A DNA stretch of 64,000 nucleotides from Panorpa germanica (taxonomy: Eukaryota; Arthropoda; Insecta; Mecoptera; Panorpidae): assembly GCA_963678705.1 (NCBI GenBank), contig OY783218.1, forward strand, positions 13,774,152 through 13,838,151, written 5' to 3'. Position 1 is the first letter of the stretch. The number at the start of each line of letters is the position of its first letter. The position numbers were made by a program, and so were the translations under genes. Below, piece by piece: positions 6,801-18,800 of this stretch. A model generated the notes under the pieces. That model was given only the letters and a program-made list of their open reading frames with translations, made no database searches and was not told the DNA's origin.

Positions 6801-9800
6801 GCAAGTTGATTTTTCTTATTTTGTGTAATTTGGGAATGATGGTTACCAAAGATTTTTCTTCTTAGATATTATTAATATATCTATTGCTGCTTAGGAAGAG
6901 ATAAGTGAGGTCTCATCGACAGAAACAACGTCCCGATTTAAAGATATCCATAATTGTCAAGCAATCTGCAGGGTCTATCTTGTGTGTAGGTGCCTTTAGA
7001 AAAGCTGCACCTTTCCAACTTTTGAAGTGGTAGTCTTTTGGTTTTTTTGTTGTATGACATGAGGAAGATAGGACAATCCCAGGACAATAGTTGGCCAAGA
7101 CAGATTACCTTACTTCATGTTGTGTATTTCCTCCGCGAACGAAATGTCATTGCTAATGTACAAGAGACACACAGTTAAACATAACCCATGACCCCAACCC
7201 AGCGTGATGATGCTGGCTACTACATGTTTCTCGAAGGATCTGTTGTCTCTAGAGATAAGATATATGCTTCTGTTTCGGGACTAGCAACTTACTTGCTTGC
7301 TGTTGTGCAGTGGCGAATCAAATTGGGGGTTGGGAGGCCCTAACGGTAAAATTTACGTGGTCTTCAAAGGAGATAAGCATCAGATTTATACGTAATAACA
7401 CGTGGTCGTCGCTGTAGAAGACATTTGACTAAATCAGAGCATAAACCTAAACGACTCTGCCTAGAAATATATACAAATGAAAAGCTATCCTCAGATATGA
7501 GATTCTGTGGCGTGGGCGCCTCTGGGTAAATTCGCCACTGTTATTGTGACTGTGTGTATGTAGAACTTACATAGATATAAAAATCGTGAGGAAAATTTAA
7601 ACTGTTATTACACAAAGGAGACAGTTTTAAATGAGAACTGTAGATGACACTGTGTGTGTTAAGTCTGGTTTGGTGTTTTATACTCAAAACGCTCTCAGGA
7701 ATTTCAAATGAAACGTTTTCAAAGAAACTAATATTCTAATTCTATTTCTCAATATTTAAACATTACAATATTAAATTTGAAGACCATAATAATAGTCAAT
7801 AATAGTTTAGGTAATTTAGGTTTATTTAAAAAAATATATAAAGGTTAAAAGTTTATGTCTTTTTTTATTTAGTCTTATGTATTTAGTTTCTAGTCAATTA
7901 TCTTAAAAGATGCTATTAATTATGAGCGTGACAAAAGCGCCATCAAACGAAGATCATTGTAACTAATTCCAATACATTGCGTGCTAAAATATAGCGTTGG
8001 TAGTCTATTTATGGAACATATTATTATTTGATCAAATACCATTGTGTACTGATAGTATTAGTTGCTCCAATTATTGATATTAATTTGTTTAGTTCGTGAT
8101 ATATTATCAGGATTAAGTGGCCGCAAATCAATTTGTTTTACATCATTATTTGTCCCTCTGTTTGTTTTGTTGTCTCTTCTTGTCTTGTGAATTATCATTA
8201 ATTGTTAAGTTCTGCATCTGTATGTATGTTTAGTCATATGTATTATAAGCTTTATATTAAGAAATATTAATTTTCTCAAGTATATCATAACTCTCCCACA
8301 CGTTGCCTTACTTCTCTATGACAAAAGAAACGAGATATTGAACTGTTTTTAAAATGACGTGATTATTTCTCATCTGATTTGACCTGCAAACCGTGATTTG
8401 CATTACTAACAATATCCATAAAATATTCAATCCATTTTCTAATATTTGTATAGAGGAAAAGCTTCTAAGTTAATGCAGTCATTCAGTTTATTACTTGCTT
8501 TATAGAACATCTGGTACTTCAATAATTCATACTTCCATAAAGGTCATACACTAGTTACGATTATGACATTTTCCGTTGACTGTTATAAATATAATCTAGG
8601 TTTATATCTTCAGCGTAATCTATAAATGTTACGGTATTCCATAAAAATAGAAAACATAAAATTCTTTATCACAATATTGCTTGCGCTTCTCTTAGTGCTC
8701 TTGACTTGCATATGTTCCAATCTAATGCAATAAAAGGTTGTTGTATATTTTTATTTGCATACATAGTAACTGATCTGCAACAGGAGAGATGCAACAATGA
8801 TACTAGCATTATGACGAGTGCTACTGCAAATATGATATTGTTATGCAAGTATACTTTCGTTGCTTTTGAGTGAAATATTTCTGCAATGATATTCTATATC
8901 TTTCTTTGAAGAATGCTGTTTCTTTGTGTAAGCATGAATACCTCTCAAATTAAATTTCATAAGGTTCAGTTTGACGTTTCAATCAATATATTATTTGGTA
9001 TTTGTTTAATAGCCTCGCAAAAAAATCAAGTCGCGATACTTAGAAGTAGCGAGGAAACAGTTAAACTTCAGTCCAGAAAAATAGAGGATTTTCGAAAAGG
9101 AGATAAGGACAAGAGGTGGATGACGGAGATATAGACAATAATAAAAAAGTAAAGGAAGAGAGTCAAGAAGAAATAGTAAAGTAAGACAGTCAAGAGGAAA
9201 TAGTAAAGATAGAGCGTTTATGCCTGTAATAGACATAAGTGGAGAAGTGAAAACGAAGAGAGAAGGCAGGAAGGATAGTGAAAAGATAATAGAGGGTTTG
9301 TCGAGAGGAGACAAGGAAGGCAAGAGGTGATAGATGAAGATACAGGCAATAAGGAAAGAGAAGCAGGAAACGGTGTACATAAAGAAAGAGTAGGGAACAT
9401 GAAGAGAAAGGCTCAAGAAAAGAAGAAACAGAAAGTACTATTCGAAGTAGTAATAGTCTAGAATAGTTTAAGTTTAGTTTTAACTTTGAACTTATATGAA
9501 ATGCATTAAGAAATATAATAATGTAGATTGTAAAGCCGAAAGGCACACAATTAATATAATAAAAAATAATAAATAAATAATACTTTGCAAACGACGCTTT
9601 TGTACAATACTCTATAGATATTTCTTAGTATGGGTGAACAACTTCTCCGCTATTGTTTACTGTTAAATTTGATGAATCTTTTCTTTTTAGGAAGGTGCGA
9701 GGTGTCTTCAAACAGTAACGAGAATGTGTAAGAATTAAAAAAGAAAACTAAAACTACAACGGAAACAATAGCTGGGAATGATACTTGTAAATTAGGAAAC

Positions 9801-12800
9801 TTAATTAGAGATAAGCCTAGTGCTTTGTATGAATTTAATTAGAATAATTTTGTTAAAATAAAGGATAAATTGTATACGAGTATATCCTAAATATCTTTTT
9901 ATATTTATTATTTGACAAATAAATTAAAACCCTTTCGTTATGTACAATGATTAATAAATTATGCCAGAAATGTTAAATAGGTTTATAAGAAATCAAAATT
10001 ATTTCGCCATATGCCCACACTTTATGAATTTAGTGATAAATTTTATCAACTCATACAATGACATATAATCAATGATATAAACAAAAAAAAACACAACATC
10101 CTGCTGTAGATATATGAATATGCTGCTACTCAATAAATGCTGTGATTCCGATTCTACCACAGAATTAATTACGTTGTGAACTGATTTTTTAGTGGTCGAT
10201 CTTAATCTATTGGTTGTTAAATATCACGACATTATATGAAAATTGTATGGATTACCGCAATAGCTGTTAGCGCTGGGCGTGTGATTCTGTATTTTCTTTA
10301 GAGAACGGTATAACCATCTCTTTTTTAACATCGATGGCAAAGGTAGGCAAATGGTTGTGGAGAAAAAAGTGAGGAAGGATATGATATAAACTTCTAAATC
10401 AATTTTTATAATGTTTTCTTCTTTTTCTAAACCTTTTTGCTACTACGATGAATACTGCTTCCTGTTTAAAGTCGACGGTTTAAATAATGTAGGAAATCGT
10501 GCAACTATTCAGCACTATTATTCTAAACTGTCAATAAAATCGAACAGTCTATAAAACATTTCCAGCGAGTAAACATGACGTGACGTATTTCAGACACTTG
10601 AATCGGCTGATCGTATCGAGGAAGCATCTCCAGCATCTCAAATGCCAGCGTTTGAAATATTGTAATAATTTATGTTGTATTTGGTACAAAGAGTTTTAAA
10701 CAATAAATCAGTTTTATACCCGTAATACGTTTGTTGGTTATAAATGACTAAATAAACGCAAAAACAACAAACCCACTTATTTATTACAATGGAGAAAATA
10801 AACAAAATGAAGTTCATTTAATATCGATCTTATGCCTTCTGTTTGTTTTTGTGTATTATATCATTTAAGCACTAATTCTGTTAATTATGAATTATGAGGG
10901 TCAAATATTTAAACAAAGAAAGAGGAGGACTTCTTTGAAACAGAGAAGGTAGGTAATTTACTTAGAATACTAAGATTTATCTCTTACGGAGAAAAATGTA
11001 CTCTCTTATGGCTTTTACGTAAATGTTCGACTCTTTCAGTCTGATATATTGTATTGCAATTACTTTGCAACAATTAAGAATAAAGACTACTACGATTAGC
11101 AAAATATTGTTATTAGTTTAAACCTAAAACATAAAACAAAAACATATATTTCAACAAGAATCTTAGATACCACCATTTCTAAAAACATCGATTGTGGTTT
11201 GTTCCAAAATAAAATAAAATAAAATAAAACCTTAAGAACACAATAGAAATTTTAAAGTAATTAAAAAAAATTAACAAAAACAAATGAATAAAATAATTAA
11301 CATATCAGTTGGCAGCGAACTAAATTCTAAGTTACCTAATATACAATTATTCCTGTAGCAAATCAGAAAAATGAAATTTCCGTTATCAATTGTAAAAAAA
11401 ACCGTCAGTGTTGTAAAACCTCAAAGCAAATTGATTATCAGCGCATTGAGCTCATGCGCATCTCCACCTGATGACAGGGACGTTGTCTACAAGGTAAGTA
11501 GCTCATAGTACTAGTAATTAGAGCATGTGGTGCTAAGAAGGAACACTCTTGAAATGTTAAGTAAGGAAATCCGGACAAAGTCTAAAGCAGTTCGTTAAGT
11601 TGGCAGAACTTTGGTGAAAACTACGAGGGAAGTAACTCATATTATGATCCTGCATATAGATCTGGTAACGACGGAACGATTTTGATGAAAGAAGGGTCAC
11701 TCAGAAGAGGAACATTAAACGTCGCATTATGCCAGACCTGTGTACAGGACCATGTTATAAGTACTAAACATTGAACGGCAGATCTGAATCTGAAAGCATA
11801 AGTAGACTATTTCCGAGAGGTTTAAAATCGAATCAGATTTTGATGAAGATTGATTGATAGATTAGTTCAGCAAATTACAAAAGATGCTATCACTATATTT
11901 TAAGTAGACCTCGTAGAAACATATTGGAGGACACATACTTGCGACAAAACTATCTTAAAACAAAATTGTTCCTGTTTTCTCTGTTTCTTCAATGTGTTCC
12001 TATGGTGTTGTCTCATCATTTTACCACCCTAAGATTATTTAATAAGTAAAGTGTTTGTAAATTAGACGCTTTTTTCTCGTTAACATTTGTAAACAGCTTG
12101 TGTTGTGATTATTTCAGAAAGGTCTACTTCTAGGAGCTTACGAATCTAATTCAAGTACTCCAATCTTAACGAAAGCTGCTCAGTCGTTTAACGACAGAGT
12201 TGGTGGCAGACTGCTTGAAAAAATTGCGCAGTAAGCAACAAATATTAGTACATATATATACACTCTTCGTATATTAAAAATAGAACACAGAAGCACATAT
12301 TTATTTTATGTTGTAATATTGTGAAAATAATATTAACAGATGTGGAGAATTTAAGAAAGGAGCTGGCCATTTACTGGAGAATATTTCTTCAGAGTTTAGT
12401 TCTATAGCAGTTGTTGGAATTGGGACGGAGGAACGGGACTATAAAAAAATTAATACGTGCGAAGAAAGAAGTGTAAATATTAACTTTGTAATTATGCATA
12501 AAATTTGAGTTTGAACCATTAATGTTCCTAGTAAGTGTATGTATGTGAGGGGTAAATTGTTGTAAAAGCAAAATAGGTAATCTACTAATAAACTTGTTAC
12601 TAAATCTATGGAAAGGGGAGATAAATTAAAACATAAAATACAACAATTTGTCACTCAGGTATATATACTCTACTAAAATAATAAGATTAGTAATTTTTGG
12701 CAAAACTATTGACGAATCTTTTAAAAATAATTTTATACCTTTTATTAATGAATTTTCTTAATTAATTCAAACTTCTACTAAAGCAAAATTTTCTTGGTTT

Positions 12801-15800
12801 TTATGTTCGGCTGTTACATCCTTCACTTCATGCGCTTCATACAATTTTGGACCAATTTTCCTTGGGATCAGATTGATGTCCCTTTGAATCCGGTAATATA
12901 CTATTTAACCAACTTTAATTTCTTTAAATTAGCATCTCCTGGAGTTTAATTCAGACTCCATAAATTATCTCTATATTTCATATATTTTGCTGTGATCCCA
13001 AATAGTGCGTGAAGTTGCAGGTTGTAATAGAAGAATGTATCTAGAATGAATCTTTCCAAACATTAAAACTAAACGTCATTTAAACCATGTGGGAATCACA
13101 GCAGAATAAATGTAATATAGTCCATTGAAAATTCATCCAATAATTATTAAATTAAAGCATTTTGTTTAAATATGTAGTTGTTTTATAAAATTTCCAGGAA
13201 AATGTTAAGGAAGCTGCATCACTGGGGGTGAGATGTCTTAGAGAAGCTGGCATTAATCATATTTTAGTTGATGAAATGGGTTATCCAGAGTATGCTGCTG
13301 AAGGAAGTGCCAAGGCATTTTTAAAGTATTACAATTTCACTATACATATAAGTTAATTTTGATCAATTTTGACGAATCTATTAAAAAACAAAATGTTAAC
13401 GACATATTTAACTAAATTTTCAATAGGCTGGATGAAATGTACCAGAGTGGAGTAAATAATCCATGTTTGGAGTTGTTTGAATCTGATGAAATTGATGCAT
13501 GGTCAAAAGGAATATTTCGGGCAGAGACAGAAAATCTAGCAGAGAAAATAACTACTCCTTGTGGAAAACAAATGTCGCCTTCAATGTTTGCACAGGCAAC
13601 TGTTGAAGCGTTGTGGAAGTGTGGCGTTAATTTACAAGATTGTGATAAAGATTGGATTGAAATGCAGTTGTTGAATACGTTTCATACTGTAGCTAGAACC
13701 GCAAGTACCTCTCCAATGTTTTTGGAGCTGAACTATTCGTGTTGTTCCACGCTAACTGATAAGCCGGTTGTTTTGGTAGGGGTTGTTGGAAAGTATCTGC
13801 CATTGGAAGGGTAAGTTTTCAGCCAGACTGAAAATCTGAATCTGGATATCAAATAATTAATCTATTAAATTTCTTTTCAAGTGATAATCAAACGTATGGT
13901 TCTACGGATGATATAAAAAATCGGGTACCGAATGCCGCAGTGGTTATGGCATCATTAAGACCAACATCTCCACTAACTCTTCCTACAACAATTACGGCTG
14001 TTGTACCATTTTCTGATAGTTTTGCTAATGATTCTTCTTTTGATAACAATGCATTACAGGAGCTTGAAAATGAAAAAAGCATTGCTGTCAATGTTAAAGC
14101 ATCTAAGGGTCTTTTTCCACTGTATATAGTCAAGATAAAAAAATTAAACTGAAATTTAGTTCCTATTGATTTATATATATTATTTTATACTCTGTTATTT
14201 ACTTTTATGTTTAGAAAGTAATTGAAACTAAAATAAAATAAAAATACAGACAAGTTTAGGTAGTGTATATCTTATAATAATATATATATATATAATTAAA
14301 AGCTGATTTGTTTGAGAGAGCCTATGGACTAAAGATTCGTTTGATATTATCCGTGACATTGACTAAGTGTGGATACTTCTGTAATTTTATATAATATTAC
14401 TACATAACATTATTACGAATGTAGCTTTTTTAAAATCTATATTTAAAAACACCTGAGGGCTTTTAGACAATCACTCTTCTACAATATTCGCACTAAATTT
14501 TTATTTATCTTGTTACAAAATCAATTTCGTATCAATTTTAAATATAAATTTATTTATTTTTGTCATCACACAGATGAGTAAACATCAAATGGATGTGCGA
14601 GATATTTTTATGAAATAAAATTGAATTAGTAGCACATATAGGGAACTGATAAAAGCATACTTATAAAAGGGCAGAAGTTACTCTTTTCTCAGCATACGTC
14701 GCTCTTAACTCTGTTTTATAAAGTTGAAAATGAAAATGGGTTATGAGTTTGAACCAAATGCCTAAACTTAATTAATTATGTCGAAGTAATTTGTGTGTAA
14801 TGTTTTATAAAATATTCTTTTATGTTTTTTAATTTGATGTTTAATTATAAAATGTTTGTTAAACTTAAGAGTAATACAGATTTGGAATTATATGTTTTGC
14901 AAAAGATTTAATGATATTAAAAAGACGTACTTGTGCGATAATAGGATTTTCCTTTGACGGAAATGATCCCTTATTTGAGCAGCTTATTTTAAAAGTGGAC
15001 TAAGTCTATTTTCAGTAGTTTAATTTTAATAACAGATAGCTCTTATGTATTTTCTTTTAGGTTATGTAACTTTATTATGTACTGAGAAACTTAACTCTAC
15101 TTATTGTCGTCATTAACTTCAACTTTTCAAACATGGACTTATCTCCCTTTCAAAATATACACCCCATTTATTTTATAATACTGTATTATTATAGAAATAT
15201 TTTCCTTTTCCGTCTACACATTTTTCAGTTGGGTAAAGTACAGTAGGAGATCGAGGTATATGCTAAATAACCATGAACAGAAATTGTGTAATAACAGGCT
15301 CGACTGGACAGGCGAGTGGCTCAAATTCCCTCCAGGGGATGATGTGTGGGAATAAAATGAGATGGGAATACCAATGGGACACATACAGTACATACTACTG
15401 GTACATGCTCCTGTATATCATAGTACACATTTTATTTGTATTAGTAAAGAATTGAAGTTTACTCGTTATGAAATATTTTCAAACTGTTTTTATTCATTTT
15501 GAAATGTGGAACTTTAATTTCTATTTGAAAATATTCACACTTTTTTAGTTAGTTATATTTTTGAACATACTTTGAATTCGTAATTATAACCATGACGACA
15601 TTATTTTGTTTGGTTGTTCATATCGAAAAGAGTTTTTTTATTTTTGCTCTATGAAAGGAACGGAGAGTCAGTAGAAGAGAGAAATTTGGCTCTGGATGCG
15701 GAGGTACAAGAGAATCTGTGAGAGTGAATTATCGGCATACTAAAAGGAGAAAGACACAAGCAAAGAGAATAGCAAGATATAGAATGAGCAATGAGGAGAA

Positions 15801-18800
15801 GGGAAATAGGTATTGGGAAGAAATAAAGAGCAGAGAATTTGGGATAGAGACAGAAAGAAAAGAAGAAATCAATAGAAACTATGTATTGTATAAATCGAAT
15901 AAAGCGAAACAACAATGAAACTCAGTAAATATAACTTTGTAATCAAATAAAATGATAGAGTAATGGCACAAACAACTTCTTTTACCGTAGACATTATTAA
16001 AAATGATTATTATTTCTGAGTAACAGACAATAAAAATTAGTAAAGCAAACACAATTTATATTTCTGTGAAAAGATAATATTTACCTTACAAATTCTAGAA
16101 TAAAATACGAGAGGAAGCAAATAACCCCCATCCAACCACCCCCGCAGTCCCCTTCATCCTTAGGGAATATAAAATAGAAGAAAATACTCGTGTATTTCAA
16201 AAGACGATTTACTATTTTATATTTTCCCGGTGCTTTTCCTTGTGTATGTGTATGTGCGTGTGTGTGTATTTTCCCGTAATAATTATATAATGAGATGTTA
16301 TTCTCTGAAAATAAAATTAATTAAAAGGAATGTACACACATTTCTAAATATAAGTGGCAGTGGAGTAAAAATGACCAGTGGTTTTTCGGATAATCTTTTT
16401 GGTTGATTAATGATAATCTTTTGATCTGTTATCACGTGACATTTTAACCCTTTTATATATATTAATCTGTCACTCTGTCAGATGAGAAATGGATATCATA
16501 TATGTGTCATACATCAACTCATTTCTCTGTGTGTATGCGAGTATACATGTATAGATGTAATGAAATAATTACCATTTATGGGTATTGCTTGACGATAAAG
16601 AAAAATCTAAAACGGATAATAAAATTAATTTAATTTAAGGCCTTACTTAATATGTGGGATGAAACAAATATTAAATAGACGCCACAGCTAATAAGCTGGC
16701 AAGTTGACTCTTGCACACTGCCTTACAATTTCTATGGCAATCTGTTAATTCTTATGGCAGTATTTTTCTATTTCTTAGAATTCGTCTAAAAAAAATGTAT
16801 AAAACAAAAATTCTTAAATACCAATATTAAACCAATACGTGTATCAAATTTAATATTAAAGAGTCAATAACATTATTTTTGAAATGTGCTTCAGGCAAGT
16901 GGTTTCTCTTATTGAGTTTCAGTTCAATACGAGTATAAGAATCACTTAAGAAAATATCCTTACCAATCTGAACGAGTTTAAAGTTCAAATGATATTATAT
17001 TTCAGAAAATGATAAACCCAATAAACAATAAAATATTATAAGATAAAAGAAGGGAGAATCTTATTTCATAAAATTGAATAATATATTTTTGATTGAAAAT
17101 CAAATATTGACATATGTCGTTGACTGACCACGAACGACAGTCATGTGTCTGCAGCGGAAGCAGAAGTTTTATAAGTTTAACATTCCTTAGGGGTTGTGGA
17201 AAGTTCTGCAATATCGCTAGGGGTTGAGAGGGTTGTCAGTGTCACTCATATTTCAACGTACTGTGGTGCAATGCACGGAAATACATACTGTAATTGCTTT
17301 CTTGCGTGTTGGTTTATAATATTTTATTGCCGGAACAAATAAACTGACAAATATATTTATGCTCCAAAATGTAAACATAGAAATAAATTGCCCAATAGTT
17401 GTGACACAGAAATTAAGAGAAAAATAAATAAATTCAATTTACTGTTATATAATTTTACTTATATTAAACTACAGATAAAAGATTTTATTTCAAAGGTAAT
17501 TTTTTTTATATTAAAAAAACCGTTGTGAGTTTTTTGAAGGCTAACATCATTTTAACATTGTATGAAGAATAAATAAAATGTGAAAATAGACTACCCCAAG
17601 CAAACCACCCTTACAGACATCAGTAACGATAGTCGTTTATTCAGTTCTATGTGTAATTCGATAAAACCAATATTTTAGTAGAGATAAAAAGTTACTTTTT
17701 ATTTTAGAGTCCAGTCAAAGTATGTACTAAGCTTGTAATAATTTAAATACATAGTTCTTTGAATTGTGAATCGTAGGTAATTTGAAGTTCATTTAACATA
17801 AAAAATTACCTGTTACATAATAGATTTAGATATATTACATAAAATTATACTTATAAATTAGTGTTTTCTGACGTAAATTAAACTTTTATGCTACACTACA
17901 TAATGTTACATATTAAACTAATATAATAGTAAAAGATATTAAGTGTATTTTGGTTTTATTTAATAACAAACTTCGAAAATAATAAATCGTAACTTTAGGT
18001 AAAAAAAATAAATTAAGATTAGTATGTCTTGCTTACAAATTATTTGTATTACATGTATTTGTAGTTATTATTAAGCTAAATATTGTTGAATACGTTATAT
18101 ATTTTCGTTGCATATTTAAAACAATTATTTCACTAGTAAACCATAGATGTCCTGGACTATTAGCCTACAATAACTTTTCTTTCCTTGAGAGTGATGCTTC
18201 TCAATGCAAGTCATCGTCAGGTCGTTACACTCAAGGTAAAGCAGCGCGGCGCAAGAACTTGGACTTTACAGTTCTGTGATTTATGGGTTACAAACCACCC
18301 CCTCCCTCACATTTCCACTCTAATCAGACAGATACGATAACGGAAACGTTTATAAAATAAGAAAATATTATTTATTGATACTATAAAATACCGTTCAATA
18401 TTTCTGACAGTTTTAAAATTGTTTACAAAGTTTCAATCTGCTGCCAAGGTTTTAAAATAATTAAATACATAAATAAGGGTTAATGGGGTTTAAGTCAGTT
18501 CTTTAATACATCATCTTTAATTAATCGGTGTGGTGGTAAACTTTTTAAATTATTTTCTTTTTCAAGAGATTTTATTATAGAATATAGAAAAAGTGGGAAA
18601 AAATTTTCAGCTTTATATTGTCTAATAAATTTTCTTAAAAGATTTTTGGATTAAAAAAATATAGTTAAGAAATTGAAAAATTATACTAGAAGTTTGTTAA
18701 AAAGAAATAAATCATGCCAAATATATAAAGAACCAAAATATAAATTAAAAAAATGCTTCTAAAGGACTTATTAATTATTATATTTATTGTTTATTTAATT

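Follow-up and report, generated by a model that had tools for sequence, protein, structure and literature searches.

A probable catalytically dead M17 aminopeptidase relative with a shortened catalytic domain in Panorpa germanica

The bovine lens leucine aminopeptidase (LAP) of peptidase family M17 is active as a hexamer and has all seven active-site residues in a full-length chain of 484-488 residues. This set of five metal ligands together with a catalytic Lys and Arg is described in PMC3078892, and Drosophila S-LAP 1-8 are reported to be expanded M17 paralogues in which active-site residues are replaced and a structural role is proposed (PMC3078892, PMC6388916). According to PMC6388916, all Drosophila S-Laps are found in the sperm mitochondrial paracrystal, mutants are male sterile, and S-Lap1 and S-Lap6 proved enzymatically inactive as recombinant proteins, with hexamer formation and binding still to be determined. 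In Bombyx an S-LAP is required for eupyrene sperm (PMC13115824), and relatives have been reported from monarch, Manduca and Pieris sperm and from dung beetle testes (PMC5712127, PMC13060016, PMC8382682). Described here is a gene on the forward strand of a 64,000-nucleotide stretch of Panorpa germanica DNA (contig OY783218.1, positions 13,774,152 to 13,838,151; "the window", to whose positions all coordinates of the gene refer), which is probably a protein-coding, catalytically dead member of an S-LAP-like M17 expansion that has been retained as a pseudoenzyme. For the Panorpa paralogues the label "S-LAP" is given by analogy.

By its Pfam scores the predicted protein belongs to peptidase family M17, with the N-terminal domain (PF02789) at 26.2 bits and the catalytic domain (PF00883) at 40.5 bits, both above their curated cut-offs of 23.4 and 25, although only profile positions 2-163 of 310 are matched in the latter. 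Alignment to M17 structures, which an earlier sequence-only reading of this DNA had suggested, matched residues 42-365 to bovine lens LAP (PDB 1bll and 1lam, E 3.9e-31 and 4.8e-31). An alignment to 13 other M17 proteins from this genome shows that the protein keeps none of the seven active-site residues: V, a gap, P, R, A, K and a gap stand at the positions that we take to be K250, D255, K262, D273, D332, E334 and R336 in bovine LAP numbering. The sequence-only reading had likewise held every metal-ligand and catalytic position to be replaced; a one-residue shift in its alignment gave K, S and G at the last three, and with either alignment all seven are changed, two of them being gaps in the present one. 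The metal loop, additionally, has lost six residues. With none of the seven residues kept and the C-terminal part of the catalytic domain incomplete, the protein is not expected to be an active M17 leucyl aminopeptidase.

The gene model consists of six exons (11371..14152, exon sizes 123, 113, 133, 128, 384 and 271 bases) that join into 383 codons followed by TGA (14150-14152), with no internal stop or frameshift and with GT..AG borders at all five introns (624, 109, 725, 101 and 71 bp). Introns 2-5 were recovered at identical bases by spliced alignment with a paralogue, L010, as sole guide, using an aligner purpose-written for the analysis, whose alignment does not reach exon 1. The complete six-exon, 383-codon frame that had been proposed from the sequence is confirmed by these findings. 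Exon 2 (12118..12230) begins the M17 N-terminal domain (KGLLLGAYES...) and is found by tblastn with L010 at 1.75e-07, the profile alone giving E 6.2; exon 3 (12340..12472, profile E 1.2e-06) and exon 4 (13198..13325, E 6.1e-11) continue this domain. Exon 5 (13427..13810, E 3.6e-28) encodes the domain linker and the first part of the catalytic domain as far as the partly deleted metal loop, and exon 6 (13882..14152, E 7e-04) the degenerate active-site region, NVKASKG in the place of NTDAEGR, a probable last strand and the TGA. A putative polyadenylation signal, AATAAA (14232..14237, + strand), lies 80 bp past the stop.

Exon 1 (11371..11493), which would supply the start codon and a presequence in 41 codons, is the weakest part of the model. 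Its homology is near nil, identities to four paralogues ranging from 3/34 to 9/36, and it is based on an ATG, a consensus donor site and a basic, acid-free start with five Lys or Arg and no Asp or Glu among the first 28 residues, from which mitochondrial targeting may be suggested. Intron 1 (11494..12117, 624 bp) contains a dispersed repeat at 11917-12048, where 38 of 40 listed genome matches fall with 76-93% identity. A recent copy of the gene was also considered and rejected, for the 40 DNA matches listed (of 104 candidates) are the gene itself and 39 short ones inside intron 1. A Pfam scan of a 62-residue frame within an intron gave no family, and intron 3 had no second match in a genome search that skips very common words.

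Selection on the gene was evaluated by codon maximum likelihood on a fixed tree of 14 sequences (314 codons). The ratio of nonsynonymous to synonymous rates (omega) was 0.095 on the branch of the window gene vs 0.045 elsewhere, and setting it to 1 on that branch costs 7.96 units of log-likelihood (lnL; 2dlnL 15.9), which rejects neutrality for the branch as a whole; in a set of 8 sequences the cost is 7.3. The smaller set was also divided into exons 2-4, exon 5 and exon 6 (104, 127 and 83 codons, respectively); for these parts omega = 1 costs 6.23, 1.23 and 0.65 lnL, and forcing omega to the value of the paralogues costs 0.00, 0.79 and 1.05. These costs indicate that the N-terminal domain is constrained like that of its kin, and that exons 5 and 6 do not discriminate between constraint and neutrality. 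Within the limits set by saturated synonymous divergence (dS), the N-terminal domain has thus been under purifying selection. Of the retained non-enzymatic role first suggested from the open frame, what stands is a dead M17 paralogue whose retention can be stated with confidence only for its N-terminal domain (exons 2-4). Of the alignment columns that are invariant in all other rows, the window protein keeps 2/2 in exon 2, 1/3 in exon 3, 5/6 in exon 4, 13/22 in exon 5 and 3/14 in exon 6.

Survival of the frame was simulated under neutrality from three starting paralogues, with a frame of the same length and without counting frameshifts. At 0.05 substitutions per site 27 to 64 of 2000 runs remained without a stop, at 0.1 only 0 to 3 did so, and at 0.2 or 0.52 none of 2000; any neutral phase must therefore be short. 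Exon 6 alone, at the length of 0.8 that a neutral fit requires, stayed open in 17 to 28 of 5000 runs, so that even this exon, although evolving fast, has probably encoded protein through most of its past.

The genome (464,208,970 bases, 249 contigs) was searched for M17, and 30 exon-level matches were grouped by the authors into at least 18 loci: 11 with a single long open reading frame (ORF; L001-L011), two canonical multi-exon LAPs (L012 and L013), four further multi-exon loci (L014-L017) and the window gene. A search for the telomeric repeat TCAGG, meant to help in placing the order, was negative. The canonical pair keeps all seven residues and also has NTDAEGR, and at least one residue is lost in 9 of the 11 long-ORF paralogues, L001 and L011 keeping all seven; among the nearest relatives of the window gene, L010 and L002 have three changed and L009 two. 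With L010, L011, L002 and L009 the window gene clusters at a support of 100/99 (92/97 when only the sequence before the metal loop is used), and it can accordingly be placed, as far as its sequence tells, in a group of M17 paralogues that has expanded and whose active sites are eroded. Its terminal branch of 2.3 substitutions per site is by far the longest (median 0.26; before the metal loop, 1.5 vs 0.28), which makes its exact place in the tree unsure. Grouping with the canonical pair (p-AU, from the approximately unbiased test, 0.027) and grouping with the other seven long-ORF paralogues (p-AU 0.031) are disfavoured; a clade of the four nearest paralogues that excludes the window gene is not rejected (p-AU 0.118). 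A Pfam N-domain search for stand-alone N-terminal domains gave 10 matches, L001-L007 and L009-L011, and was not exhaustive, since it missed L008 and the window gene itself.

The canonical L012 and L013 resemble the window gene in being multi-exon M17 genes, but differ in keeping the seven residues and NTDAEGR and in the positions of introns, those of introns 3-5 not being shared; their models stop short of introns 1-2. Nor does any of the gene's five introns sit at the position of an intron in L001-L011, each of which has 0-1 intron in the modelled part. The gene may derive from a retrogene that gained several introns; alternatively, its kin may have lost a different set. Between themselves, L012 and L013 have five intron positions in common. 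Other observations concern the paralogues only. The last domain of L011 (918-2650, C19) lies in a frame of its own; a phase 1 intron of 68 bp at NRLKP|TEPC was modelled to account for this, a frameshift being the alternative. Leu replaces the catalytic Lys262 in L004, L005, L006, L007 and L008, in which K250, D255, D273, E334 and R336 are kept, and this appears to be a route to inactivity unlike that of the window gene. L004 and L005 (C15:7.17 Mb) are convergent on opposite strands with their catalytic-domain matches ~1.1 kb apart, and L015-L017 (C4:9.46-9.48 Mb) form a cluster of three multi-exon M17 loci with NTDAEGR that are weakly similar to the S-LAP-like set.

Relative to L010, about 131 residues are absent at the C-terminal end, approximately the last quarter of the enzyme. 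The sequence-only reading had the chain end just after NVKASKG; instead, a 14-residue gap after the NTDAEGR equivalent removes the intervening helix, and the final 13 residues best fit the next beta strand. That match, reached in score by 228 of 20000 shuffles and by 92 of 7239 window peptides, is only suggestive of a chain end that corresponds to the strand beyond the deleted helix. In an AlphaFold2 model of L010 (mean pLDDT 72, 11 aligned rows) the helix is at 369-382 and the strand at 386-391, and, when the model is mapped through the 14-protein alignment, elements 396-518 have no counterpart in the window protein.

Truncation of this kind has a precedent. In D. pseudoobscura and D. persimilis, S-Lap2, a duplicate of S-Lap1, is reported to lack over half of its 3' end (PMC6690552), and a chain without most of the C-terminal catalytic half is therefore less unusual than had been supposed; the accompanying remark that dead LAP paralogues are known among Drosophila sperm LAPs is borne out by inactive S-Lap1 and S-Lap6 (PMC6388916). 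The truncated Drosophila S-Lap is an X-linked tandem copy whose locus produces small RNAs and antisense transcripts, whereas the window gene is a lone, strongly diverged gene with multiple introns. Consensus positions are reported as changed at three sites in S-Lap1 and six in S-Lap6, compared with all seven here, and the bovine LAP fold served as template for models of all eight Drosophila S-LAPs (PMC6388916); the window protein lacks the end of the catalytic domain. For truncated S-LAPs of sperm, a full-text search of mostly non-subscription literature found PMC6690552 alone; titles and abstract openings of the papers listed contained no truncated dead M17, and a term search of the available text of a 2024 review devoted to inactive homologues of metallopeptidases (PMC11266112) did not find the term M17. 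Dead S-LAPs and a 3'-truncated S-Lap2 are thus already known, and the predicted protein combines a change at all seven residues with C-terminal loss.

Several observations weigh against a retained pseudoenzyme, and some of them would be expected of a young pseudogene, i.e., a fast-evolving dead S-LAP that was then cut short and is now in neutral decay, its frame open by chance. Exons 5 and 6 are indistinguishable from neutral (2dlnL 2.5 and 1.3), fitting the constraint of the paralogues about equally, and exon 6 is without most of the invariant residues (its 3 of 14 compare with 14/15 in each of four paralogues) in a gene whose 3' part is gone. The GC content at third codon positions (GC3) is 0.287, which is the background level, as is the GC3 of some paralogues. 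Saturated dS, with branch lengths from 3.8 to the bound of 30, makes the omegas rough, the free fits of the 8- and 14-sequence sets ended at iteration limits, and the exon-split fit printed no convergence. The amphipathic moment of the presequence is matched by 143 of 1000 shuffles and is not significant, nor is that of five paralogue N-termini, and the near paralogue L011 retains all seven residues. Set against neutral decay are the 383 codons free of stop and frameshift with consensus borders at every intron, and the constraint on the N-terminal domain, averaged as it is over the branch. Recent decay is thus a real but distinctly less probable explanation, and the best reading is that a conserved N-terminal domain is joined to a decaying half catalytic domain.

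The gene model could also be incomplete, with more 3' exons encoding the C-terminal half. Exon 6 ends shortly past the NTDAEGR equivalent, at a plausible exon border, and profiles may overlook a short or strongly diverged exon, as the scores of an N-terminal profile for the gene's own exon 2 (E 6.2) and exon 6 (E 7e-04) make clear. Yet a C-terminal profile run in six frames over window positions 1-40000 gave no credible match (two at E 4.8 and 6.6), and the same profile, from which L011 was excluded, found the separate last exon of L011 at 7.1e-22, an easy control beside those scores. A tblastn search of the entire window with 11 paralogues as queries, the sole search to cover bases 40001-64000, gave nothing on the + strand past 14092, beyond which two weak minus-strand matches had E 0.69 and 0.79. 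As the terminal strand match further suggests a frame in register up to the stop, missing exons seem unlikely. An RNA-level role, in which small RNAs from the truncated copy would act against the paralogues as proposed for the S-Lap1 duplicate of D. pseudoobscura, has a published parallel in that 3'-truncated copy, for which antisense transcripts and small RNAs are reported (PMC6690552); it appears very unlikely here, because the longest exact run that the coding sequence shares with 17 M17 loci is 18 nt (L009) and otherwise at most 14 nt, too little for near-perfect pairing, and no inverted repeat reaching 24 bases occurs at window positions 9000-17000. That a chance splice prediction covers an old M17 relic is hardly credible: the slight homology of exon 1 would allow it, but introns 2-5 were recovered independently, exons 2-6 are homologous to M17, and neutral frames stayed open rarely or never in the simulations.

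If the gene is indeed a retained pseudoenzyme, its protein would, by analogy with S-LAPs, be made in testis, be imported into sperm mitochondria by the presequence, and act there without catalysis. In the mitochondrial derivative the N-terminal domain could bind to or pack with S-LAP paralogues, as has been suggested for the S-Laps of Drosophila. Because the C-terminal part is missing, a normal LAP hexamer is not expected, and the protein might instead be a divergent, possibly capping, partner rather than a regular subunit of the lattice. By the same analogy it may be regarded as a non-catalytic component of sperm mitochondria that keeps its N-terminal domain. A bolder and rather doubtful extension is that the M17 N-terminal domain has become functionally split from the peptidase, selection keeping it as an independent structural unit of sperm mitochondria and leaving the half catalytic domain to decay, which would be a step towards a new protein family. 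If real as a protein, the product of this gene would show that a LAP of the sperm type can be kept after losing both every catalytic residue and its C-terminal part, and would separate out the part of the LAP fold that serves a structural role in insect sperm mitochondria.

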